Source: Lapillicoccus jejuensis (GTDB lineage: Bacteria > Actinomycetota > Actinomycetes > Actinomycetales > Dermatophilaceae). From it: a DNA stretch of 64,000 bases. The notes beneath the pieces are model-generated. The model had not been told where the DNA came from. It made no database searches and saw nothing but the letters and a program-made list of their open reading frames with translations. Positions within the stretch are counted from its first letter, which is position 1. Every line of letters starts with the position of its first letter. The stretch is taken from assembly GCF_006715055.1 (NCBI RefSeq), contig NZ_VFMN01000001.1, positions 2,046,001 through 2,110,000 of the forward strand, written 5' to 3'. The position numbers and the translations under genes were made by a program. This document shows, one piece after another, positions 38,765 through 41,418 of the stretch.

Positions 38765-39598
38765 GTGCCCCTCGTCACCACGGCCGAGCTCGTCGACGAG
38801 GCCCGCGCCGGCCGTCACGGTGTCGCCGCGTTCAACGTCATCACCCTCGAGCACGCCGAGGCCATCGCCGCCGGCGCCGAGCGTGCCGGCCGGCCCGCCG
38901 TCCTGCAGCTGAGCGAGAACGCCGTCCGGTACCACGGCGGACGACCGGCCCCGCTCGCCGCGGCGCTCGCCGCGCTCGCGCAGGAGTCGGGCGCGCGGCT
39001 CTCCCTGCACCTGGACCACGTCGAGGACGGCGCGCTGCTGCGCCGCGCCGCCGACGTCGGCGCCAGCTCGGTCATGGTCGACGCCTCGCGCATGCCGTAC
39101 GACGCCAACGTGGCCGCCACCGCCGACGCCGTCGCCTGGGGCCACGAGCACGGCCTGTTCCTCGAGGCCGAGCTCGGCGAGATCGGCGGCAAGGACGGCG
39201 CGCACGCCCCCGGGGTGCGCACCGACCCGGACGACGCGGCGGCCTTCGTCACCGCGACCGGCGTCGACGCCCTCGCCGTCGCGGTCGGCAGCTCGCACGC
39301 GATGGTCGACCGGACCGCGGCGCTCGACCTCGACCTCGTCGCCGCCCTGGCCGCCCGGCTGCCGGTCCCGCTCGTCCTGCACGGGTCGTCCGGCGTCCCC
39401 GACGCCACCCTGGCCGCCGCGGTCGCGGCCGGGGTGACCAAGGTCAACATCGGCACCATCCTCAACGTCGCCTTCACCGGCGCCGTGCGCGAGGCCCTGC
39501 ACGACGAGGGCCTCACCGACCCGAGGCGCTACCTCGCCCCCGCCCGGGACGCCGTCGCCGGCACCGTCGCGCACCTGCTCGGGGTCGTCGCCGGCTGA
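38765..39598 (+). CDS. Class II fructose/tagatose-bisphosphate aldolase family protein
   Basis: This 277-residue zinc-dependent aldolase is shorter than housekeeping FbaA and closer to the KbaY/GatY and small FbaA group. Motifs are AFNVITLEHAEAI, the zinc histidine in LHLDHVEDG, EAELGEIGGKDG, VGSSHAM, the zinc histidine in VLHGSSGVPD, and TKVNIGTILN. Its neighbours are an ammonia-lyase homologue and a Dabb protein rather than sugar kinases, so the natural ketose substrate is not clear. A GTG start with AAGGAT is used. Confidence 0.85.
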   Translation: MPLVTTAELVDEARAGRHGVAAFNVITLEHAEAIAAGAERAGRPAVLQLSENAVRYHGGRPAPLAAALAALAQESGARLSLHLDHVEDGALLRRAADVGASSVMVDASRMPYDANVAATADAVAWGHEHGLFLEAELGEIGGKDGAHAPGVRTDPDDAAAFVTATGVDALAVAVGSSHAMVDRTAALDLDLVAALAARLPVPLVLHGSSGVPDATLAAAVAAGVTKVNIGTILNVAFTGAVREALHDEGLTDPRRYLAPARDAVAGTVAHLLGVVAG

Positions 39599-39647
39599 TG
39601 GTCGACCGTGGCTAGGGTGACGTCGTCCCCGGCGCCCTGGAGGTCTC

Positions 39648-41096
39648 GTGCTCGTGCTCGACGGGAGCAGCCTCTCGCTCGACGACGTCGTCCGCGCCGC
39701 CCGCCGTCCCGGTCCGGTCGCGGTGAGCGACGAGGCCCGGGCGCGGGTCGCGGCGTCGTACGCCTTCGCGGGCACCGTGGCCGAGCAGCGCTCGGTCTAC
39801 GGGCGCTCGACCGGCGTGGGGGCCAACCGCGACCAGGAGGTGACCGCCTCCGCGGAACGGGCCCTGCAGCTGCTGCGCTCGCACGCGACGAGCTCGGGGG
39901 AGCGGCGGGCCCCCGAGCGGGTCCGGGCCATGCTGCTGGTGCGGGCCAACCAGCTGGCCGCCGACGGCTCCGGGCTCGACCCGCGCGTCCTCGACGCCCT
40001 CGTCGCCATGGTCTCGGCTGACGCCCTCCCGCCGGTCCGCGAGGGTGGCAGCGTCGGCACGGCCGACCTCGCCGCGCTCGCGACCACCGCGCTCGTCCTC
40101 ACCGGCGAGCGGCCCAGCGCCCCCGCGGTCCCGGCGGTGCCCGCGACCGTGACCTTCGACGCCGGCGACGCGCTGACCTTCATGTCGAGCAACGCCGCGG
40201 TGCTCGGCGACGCCGCGCTCGCGGTCGCGGACCTGCGCCGGCTCGTGCGGGCTTCGGTCGTCGTCGCGGCCCTCGCCTTCCACGCCGTCCGAGGCAACGT
40301 CGAGGCGTTCGGCGAGCCCGTCGAGGTGGCCACCCCGTTCCCCGGCGCGCAGGCGGTGTGCCGCGCGATGCGGACCCTGGCCGGTCCGTCCCCGCAGGCC
40401 GCCCGCATCCAGGACCCCTTCGGCCTGCGCACCTTCCCGCAGGTGCACGGCGCCGTCGTCGACCGGGTCGGCTTCGCCGAGCACGTCGTCGTCGCGATGG
40501 CCAACACCGCGTCGGAGAACCCGCTGCTCAGCGCCCGGTACGGCGTCGCCCACCACGGCGCCTTCCACGCGGCCTACCTCGTGCAGTCGCTCGACGCCCT
40601 CACCCTCGCGGTGGCGCAGTCGGCACAGCTGAGCCTGGCCCGGCTGGCCATGCTCACGGAGCCGGCCTACACCGGCGAGCGGCCCTTCCTCGGGGACGGG
40701 ACCCCGGCTGCCTCGGGCGTGATGATCGTGGAGTACTCCGCCGCGTCGGCGCTCGCGGAGCTGCGGGCGCTCGCCACGCCGGCCGGGCTGCAGGTCGTCA
40801 CCCTCTCGCGCGGGGTCGAGGAGGACGCGTCGTTCGCGACGCTCGCCGCCCGGCAGGCCCTCGACGCCGTGTCCCGCTACCGCGCCGTGCTCGCCGCCGA
40901 GCTCGTCGCCGCGGTCCGCTGCCTGCGGCTCCAGGGCGCCCGGCCCGCGCCGCTCGCCGAGGCGCTGCGCTGGCTGGACGACCGCGACGGCGGGGCGCCC
41001 GACATGCGCGACCGCGACCTCACCGACGACCTGCTGCTGGCCGAGGAGAGCGTCGTGGGGCTGCCCGACACGGTGAGCGTGCCGTGGCCGGCCTGA
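39648..41096 (+). CDS. Aromatic amino acid ammonia-lyase homologue lacking the MIO triad
   Basis: This 482-residue protein aligns along its whole length with histidine/phenylalanine ammonia-lyases. Preserved parts are the catalytic-loop Tyr51 in VYGRSTGVGANRD, AVRGNVEAFGEP, the substrate-binding QDPFGLRTFPQVHG, and NTASENPLLS. However, the site that should read GSVGASGDLAPL reads GSVGTADLAAL at residues 134-144. The Ala-Ser-Gly that cyclises to the MIO electrophile is therefore replaced and one residue is lost, while the flanks are intact. The reading frame is open, so this is not a sequencing frameshift. It may be a lyase with different chemistry, an isomerase-like enzyme or a non-catalytic relative. 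It lies 49 bp after the aldolase gene. Confidence 0.82.
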   Translation: MLVLDGSSLSLDDVVRAARRPGPVAVSDEARARVAASYAFAGTVAEQRSVYGRSTGVGANRDQEVTASAERALQLLRSHATSSGERRAPERVRAMLLVRANQLAADGSGLDPRVLDALVAMVSADALPPVREGGSVGTADLAALATTALVLTGERPSAPAVPAVPATVTFDAGDALTFMSSNAAVLGDAALAVADLRRLVRASVVVAALAFHAVRGNVEAFGEPVEVATPFPGAQAVCRAMRTLAGPSPQAARIQDPFGLRTFPQVHGAVVDRVGFAEHVVVAMANTASENPLLSARYGVAHHGAFHAAYLVQSLDALTLAVAQSAQLSLARLAMLTEPAYTGERPFLGDGTPAASGVMIVEYSAASALAELRALATPAGLQVVTLSRGVEEDASFATLAARQALDAVSRYRAVLAAELVAAVRCLRLQGARPAPLAEALRWLDDRDGGAPDMRDRDLTDDLLLAEESVVGLPDTVSVPWPA

Positions 41097-41133: not shown

Positions 41134-41418
41134 GTGATCCGCAACGTGGTCCTCGTCCGGCTCCGCGACGGCGTCGACCCCTCGTGGGCGGCCCACTGGC
41201 GCGAGCGGGTGGCCGGTCTCGACCTGCCCGGCACCGTCGCCTACACCCAGGGCGCCGACCTCGGGCTGCGCGACGGGACGTGGAGCTTCGCCCTCGTCGC
41301 CGACGTCGTCGACGAGGAGGCCTACCGGCGCTACGACCTCGACGAGGAGCACAACCGGCTGCGCGACGAGCTCGCGCCGTGGGCGCAGGACGTCGCCCGG
41401 GTGCAGTTCGAGCTCTGA
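41134..41418 (+). CDS. Dabb-domain (stress-responsive alpha/beta barrel) protein
   Basis: This 94-residue protein is a single Dabb domain of ferredoxin-like fold, usually a dimer. It begins IRNVVLVRLRDGV and contains the AYTQGADLGLRDGTWSFALVADV strand pair and RRYDLDEEHNRLRDEL. Members include small cyclases and stress proteins, but most are uncharacterised. It follows the ammonia-lyase homologue by 37 bp, so a shared pathway is possible. A palindrome CCCGCGATCGCGGG (41419-41432) directly after the stop can end transcription in both directions. Confidence 0.85.
   Translation: MIRNVVLVRLRDGVDPSWAAHWRERVAGLDLPGTVAYTQGADLGLRDGTWSFALVADVVDEEAYRRYDLDEEHNRLRDELAPWAQDVARVQFEL

Follow-up and report, generated by a model that had tools for sequence, protein, structure and literature searches.

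In a 64,000-nucleotide stretch of the Lapillicoccus jejuensis genome (here referred to as the window), we found that a gene of the HAL/PAL family without the residue triad that forms MIO belongs to a conserved clade, represented by 42 copies, and is neither a decaying gene nor a sequencing error. Textbooks treat the MIO prosthetic group as the hallmark of these enzymes. We tentatively suggest that the clade is a second family of MIO-free HAL-fold lyases, predicted hercynine trimethylamine-lyases, through which histidine betaine may enter the hut pathway. Ergothionase already provides a known case of this fold without MIO, and the clade, its signature and its genomic linkage appear undescribed. 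A clade that shares the shortening seen in ergothionase means that more than one enzyme of this fold functions, or is at least maintained, without MIO. The features of the window that are discussed below are as follows.

38765 to 39598, + strand: class II aldolase gene, upstream of the lyase gene (PF01116, 259 bits; at 0/41 other lyase loci)
39639 to 39643, + strand: GGAGG, resembling a ribosome-binding site, before the GTG start (direct sequence reading)
39648 to 41096, + strand: gene of the predicted MIO-less lyase of PF00221, 482 amino acids (Pfam match, HutH model, AlphaFold2, Foldseek)
40047 to 40070, + strand: shortened triad site GSVG-T-A-DL, residues 134-141 (two residues between Gly137 and Asp140 in 42/42 copies)
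40185 to 40190, + strand: Ser180-Ser181, where HAL has Asn195-Gly196 (Ser-Ser in 42/42 copies)
40551 to 40559, + strand: His302-His303-Gly304, ahead of Phe306, the Phe329 equivalent (His302 in 39/42 copies, His303 in 37/42)
40731 to 40733, + strand: Glu362, where HAL has Gln385 (Glu in 42/42 copies; Gln in 25/26 HutH)
41134 to 41418, + strand: Dabb-like gene, downstream of the lyase gene (PF07876, 24.8 bits, just below the cut-off of 25; at 0/41 other lyase loci)

The window gene and its protein

The reading frame starts with GTG and runs through 482 codons without an internal stop. Its product matches PF00221 with 328 bits over residues 9-438 (gathering score 27.3) and is therefore a member of this family, while its score with the HutH model TIGR01225 is 256.9 bits, below the curated cut-off of 539.15, which places it outside HutH. 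The best five models of PAL, TAL and 2,3-aminomutases gave 88-161 bits, with cut-offs of 501-1000. Moreover, the AlphaFold2 model (pLDDT 88.7, pTM 0.91) was matched by Foldseek to HAL 1b8f with a TM score of 0.92 and to ergothionase 6s7j with 0.88; its residues 53-61, within the active-site loop, have pLDDT below 50.

The triad site reads G134-S-V-G137-T138-A139-D140-L141 and is one residue short of the MIO triad, so that the absence of Ala-Ser-Gly described in the original prediction is confirmed. The accompanying statement that all other landmarks are present holds for Tyr51, the QDxxxLR region and the NPL motif, but several further positions, among the HAL active-site residues whose roles are known, have changed. 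In the numbering of Pseudomonas HAL, the HMMER alignments place Ser180 at Asn195, Phe258 at Tyr280, Glu362 at Gln385 and Val390 at Gln413, and the SGGNF segment of HAL corresponds to HHGAF.

The view that the established way of making MIO is closed to this protein, which thus uses other chemistry or has another role, is supported. It had been argued from the need of known ammonia-lyases for MIO, and in fact PAL, TAL and the 2,3-aminomutases, which have the fold family in common with the new lyase and differ from it in this requirement, to our knowledge all require MIO. The argument was nevertheless incomplete, as the fold family already holds the MIO-free ergothionase.

A conserved clade with a shortened triad site

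The first 13 homologues with the same shortened site came from a search of 58 relatives and a scan of genome contigs. When 186 genomes from the family of the window were searched with a profile, the scores were bimodal, with 26 matches in 25 genomes scoring at least 511 bits and the others at most 293 bits among the matches listed. A phylum sample of 396 genomes contained the lyase in 8 more genomes beyond two already known, and plasmid records gave 2 further copies. Members of the clade occur in the window's own family, on an Arthrobacter plasmid and in further classes of the same phylum. The 42 copies compared here include the window copy, and the remaining 41 are referred to as the other loci. 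Repeat copies of the same genes (L069 and others) were left out, a lyase cut off by a contig end (L129, genome G035) stands outside the 42, and three proteins of other MIO-less types (L125, L126 and L048) are counted in no group. The HutH control consists of 26 distinct loci of 28, after L074 and L077 were dropped as duplicates of L011 and L028. One lyase copy, in G396 (L088/L119), has about 90 additional residues in the middle of the protein within one open frame.

All 42 copies have two residues between Gly137 and Asp140, namely TG in 32, TA in 8, TS in 1 and IG in 1. The original prediction had proposed to look for a conserved TAD-type clade among homologues, and such a clade exists, with T-[A/G/S] in 41/42 copies and I-G in the last. 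In the comparison rows the triad is CSG in 26/26 actinobacterial HutH and ASG in 6/6 other MIO-type proteins. The equivalent of Asn195 is Ser in 42/42 copies and so is the following Gly, against NG in 26/26 HutH, and the Gln385 equivalent is Glu throughout the clade. The Tyr280 equivalent is more variable (Phe 32, Tyr 8, Leu 1 and Val 1). The equivalents of Tyr53, His83, Asp145, Gln277, Asp278, Arg283, Phe329 and Glu414 are kept in every copy.

The new lyase is thus like HutH (PF00221, TIGR01225) in its fold and in the equivalents of Tyr53, His83, Arg283, Phe329 and Glu414, and unlike it in having neither Ser143 nor Asn195, in the loss of Tyr280 in most copies and in the change of Gln385 to Glu. 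The window genome, a single contig of 4.58 Mb, has one other PF00221 gene, an ordinary CSG-type HutH located 325 kb away. As the original prediction held, simple decay does not account for the variant: the frame is intact and the same shortening occurs in 42/42 copies. Moreover, dN/dS between the window gene and four Marmoricola copies is 0.26-0.38 (Nei-Gojobori; dS is rough owing to high GC3).

Neighbouring genes and the ABC transporter

The class II aldolase and Dabb-like neighbours had been taken to suggest a small pathway with the lyase. This suggestion was not borne out, as neither gene gave a match (phmmer, E ≤ 1e-3) near any of the 41 other lyase copies; both were rejected as pathway partners and are probably functionally unlinked to the lyase. 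The aldolase is also present without the lyase and the Dabb gene in the three relatives whose regions were read.

Most other lyase copies are divergent from an operon encoding an ATPase, permeases and an OpuAC-type binding protein, and some of them are accompanied by an IclR regulator. According to profile counts, an ATPase, permease or binding-protein gene lies within 9 kb of the lyase in 35/41 other copies, i.e. 23/25 in the family, 6/6 at genome-contig loci, 1/2 at plasmid loci and 5/8 in the phylum sample. The copies without it are L042 (G021), L096, L046, L113 (G570), L114 (G364) and L118 (G322); among these, the contig of L096 ends 0.9 kb upstream, with IclR present, and the transporter ATPase of L118 is about 10 kb from the lyase. 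Within 1.5 kb, the transporter accompanies 28/33 lyase copies versus 0/26 HutH loci (Fisher p = 7e-12, which is not a clean probability because the rows are related). In G247, however, one canonical HutH outside this control is encoded in the same operon as the transporter. The transporter ATPase is present in 177/186 family genomes and the lyase in 25, so the transporter must have other uses, and the idea of a dedicated partner of the lyase is tempered accordingly.

As a possible partner, this transporter resembles the EgtU/ProX/OpuC quaternary-amine transporters, its operon comprising an ATPase gene, two permease genes and a binding-protein gene. The binding protein is nearest to ProX 1sw1 (105 bits) in a PDB search, followed by OpuC types and EgtUC (84 bits). 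Compared with ProX, the main-clade binding protein keeps Tyr63, but Asp, Phe and Gln replace Tyr111, Tyr190 and Tyr214, and Ala or Asp stands at Lys13. The cage is thus partly lost, which makes a poor fit to a trimethylammonium ligand. Three of the four ProX Tyr are retained in the distant L116 binding protein. The Tyr-cage determinants of EgtU, as given in section 8 of PMC9732360, are not kept in the main-clade binding proteins. The binding protein beside the lyase in L033 appears circularly permuted, as its sequence opens with what is normally the second half of the OpuAC fold (direct reading). Alignment gaps suggest the same permutation in L034, L035, L036, L039, L043, L109 and L110, and the usual order is found in L040, L041, L044, L045 and others.

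Linkage to the histidine pathway

In distant lineages, some lyase copies lie within or close to operons of histidine degradation (hut). On the Arthrobacter plasmid (L047) the order is IclR, ATPase, two permeases, binding protein, urocanase and lyase, and in G247 it is symporter, HutH, ATPase, two permeases, binding protein, lyase, M20 hydrolase and urocanase, so that HutH and the new lyase occupy one operon. The distance from the lyase to the start of the urocanase domain is 4.9 kb in G322, 5.9 kb in G332 and 6.4 kb in G364 (the last two belong to one genus and are not independent), and HutF is also close to the lyase in G322 and G332. No urocanase was found near the lyase in G570, G311 or G396, or in the 25 genomes of the window's family that carry the lyase.

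The five nearby urocanases, the only ones scored, lie above the cut-off of the HutU model (875-928 bits versus 375) and below those of thiourocanate hydratase (626-678 bits versus 930) and S-methyl-thiourocanate hydratase (686-718 bits versus 880). Exactly one urocanase is present in 30/33 lyase genomes; G090 has two matches, one of them partial, and none was found in G132 (73% complete) and G333. Five of five lyase-less genomes also have one urocanase, so genomes with the lyase are not set apart by their number of urocanases alone. We also considered a tie to ergothioneine biosynthesis, which finds no support in the window's family, where EgtD occurs in 8/25 lyase genomes versus 47/161 others (p = 0.82).

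History of the window copy

The window copy adjoins neither the transporter nor hut genes. In G002, of the same genus, a lyase copy with 44% identity to the window copy stands next to the transporter. The transporter region of the window genome, at 1.23 Mb, has the same gene order as that of G002, with identities of 84% for the ATPase, 83% for the binding protein and 98% for dCTP deaminase. The lyase is missing from it, and about 160 bp separate the ATPase and hydrolase genes there.

L122 (window genome, 1.2225-1.2424 Mb), between 14339 and 14501: site lacking the G002-type lyase (comparison with G002)

The window copy groups with the four Marmoricola copies (support 100/99, identity 73-75%) rather than with the G002 copy of its own genus. 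This grouping, together with the missing lyase at the transporter locus, indicates that the window gene is a second, unlinked lineage. The transporter ATPase of the window genome has 71-72% identity to those of Marmoricola, about as much as the lyase itself, so a recent transfer from Marmoricola and an old paralogue are equally possible. The transporter would then act with the window lyase at a distance.

Relation to ergothionase

Ergothionase is described as a HAL-like enzyme without MIO in PMC13405746, and PMC7653990 gives its reaction as ergothioneine to thiourocanate and trimethylamine. The new lyase resembles ergothionase of Treponema denticola (PDB 6s7j/6s7q) in having the HAL fold without MIO, a two-residue triad site, Ser in place of Asn195, and retained Tyr53, His83, Arg283 and Glu411/414. 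In the PDB alignment the ergothionase site reads SSIG-EG-DI, and its VSCNA and GVGWNKD correspond to SSNA and GVGANRD in the new lyase, with the common pattern GVGxN[KR]D. The two-residue site and Ser at the Asn195 position occur in 5/5 ergothionase-type rows, as in the 42 clade copies, and are common to all four ergothionase-type plasmid genes. The roles of ergothionase residues were reportedly set out with its structure by Maurer in 2019, and the five-step breakdown of ergothioneine is said to be the work of Seebeck and co-workers. MIO is unneeded in ergothionase because trimethylamine departs from a quaternary nitrogen.

The similarity is weak in the C-terminal part. With a profile of the N-terminal 300 residues of the clade, ergothionase ranked second of 39 PDB sequences (164 bits), after 7tqr (185 bits), and with the whole protein as query it ranked tenth. 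For the C-terminal part of the window protein it ranked 26th with 17 bits, compared with 43-45 bits for HALs. At the position of Lys383 (T. denticola numbering, IQKT), which we take to be a catalytic residue of this ergothionase, Lys is present in 3/5 ergothionase-type rows, and the clade has Tyr in 39 copies, Leu in 2 and Phe in 1. A tree was built from 55 rows, in which well-supported branches set apart the 32 rows of the new clade, the 5 of the ergothionase group and the 15 MIO enzymes, and the two MIO-less groups are separate, each with 100/100 support; their sister relation has an AU p of 0.4, so a common origin is not rejected. Unlike ergothionase, then, the new lyase forms a clade of its own, does not share Lys383, has a new invariant Glu362, and is linked to HutU-type urocanases and an OpuC/ProU-type ABC transporter. 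At the four plasmid loci of ergothionase type no such transporter was observed next to the gene; in L090, other ABC ATPase matches lie farther off.

The four genes are from Sinorhizobium meliloti pSymA (L090), a Paracoccus saliphilus plasmid (L091), a Polaromonas plasmid (L089) and Burkholderia arboris (L093). Where annotated, they are called hutH/histidine ammonia-lyase or aromatic amino acid ammonia-lyase. In Paracoccus, the gene comes after hutI-hutH-hutG-hutU.

Proposed function and alternatives

The retained HAL-pocket residues (the carboxylate-binding Arg, Tyr, His and Glu), the ergothionase-type site, the transport of quaternary-amine type and the linkage to urocanate hydratase together make hercynine (histidine betaine) the simplest substrate. 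We favour, at somewhat less than even chances, a MIO-independent HAL-fold lyase that would convert hercynine into urocanate and trimethylamine, with its substrate imported by the OpuC/ProU-type transporter; activity, substrate, leaving group and residue roles are all predicted from comparison. After import by this ABC transporter, Arg261 (HAL Arg283) may grip the carboxylate of hercynine, and the imidazole may be held by His79, Glu391 and perhaps Glu362. The beta proton would be taken by Tyr51 (HAL Tyr53) or Glu391, trimethylamine would depart, and urocanate would pass into the ordinary hut pathway. MIO would be dispensable here because, as in ergothionase, a quaternary ammonium group leaves readily by itself, which offers a simple rule that a quaternary leaving group makes MIO dispensable. 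If this reading is true, the lyase would be a biological sink for the ergothioneine precursor and a new bacterial source of trimethylamine, and it would explain genes automatically annotated as histidine ammonia-lyase. We found no report of a hercynine lyase or of the new clade in the open PMC literature.

Several results count against hercynine, however. The lyase does not track EgtD, the aromatic cage of the main-clade binding protein is changed, and the transporter is nearly universal in the host family. Neither the 25 family lyase genomes nor G570, G311 and G396 show the hut linkage, G132 and G333 yielded no urocanase, and the window copy is beside neither transporter nor hut genes. Moreover, the C-terminal part of the window protein is far nearer to HALs than to ergothionase.

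An unlikely but serious alternative is that the protein is a predicted MIO-free lyase or isomerase of another N-substituted histidine (e.g. dimethylhistidine) or of an imported non-histidine amine. The Asp at the cage position of the binding protein would suit a proton-carrying amine, and both the widespread transporter without lyase and the restriction of hut linkage to part of the lineages are consistent with such a substrate. Yet the hut linkage with HutU-type urocanases in three separate lineages points to urocanate, and in an enzyme without MIO neither a dimethyl- nor a free amine, once protonated, leaves readily.

That the clade itself consists of ergothionases, predicted to turn ergothioneine into thiourocanate and trimethylamine, seems improbable to us. 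The same shortened site, the change of Asn195 to Ser, the GVGxN[KR]D pattern, the match of the binding protein to EgtUC and the AU result would all agree with it. They are opposed by the separation of the two clades, the Tyr, Leu or Phe at the Lys383 position in all 42 copies, the HutU type of the five nearby urocanases, the weak C-terminal similarity and the loss, in the main-clade binding proteins, of the EgtU cage determinants described in PMC9732360.

It is very unlikely that the protein is non-catalytic and, for example, senses or regulates the use of histidine or betaine or acts as a partner of HutH. Ser143 and Asn195 are lost, as is Tyr280 in 34/42 copies, and the low pLDDT of the active-site loop would also fit, but the equivalents of Tyr53, His83, Arg283, Phe329 and Glu414 are invariant (42/42), and the new invariant polar residues Ser180, Ser181 and Glu362 are unexpected for a dead enzyme. 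Finally, a sequencing error or decaying gene, which could appeal to the single observation in the window, has a negligible chance and is refuted by 42/42 agreeing copies from independent assemblies, the intact frame and the dN/dS of 0.26-0.38.

Other MIO-less types

Further MIO-less sites were observed in the family. In Burkholderia cenocepacia (NZ_CP091014.1, L048:5797-7359, + strand), a HAL-like protein has another MIO-less site, HGSVG followed by YLTHMAH, with the NGT motif kept; its nearest PDB sequences are HALs, and 137 bases separate the gene from a match to an ABC ATPase. Among Actinomycetota, a PF00221 protein of L125 (G040) has the MIO-less type GSVGS-SDL, and the type GAA/GVA-GEI is found in L126 (G049) and, beside the lyase in G322, at L145:9891-11318.
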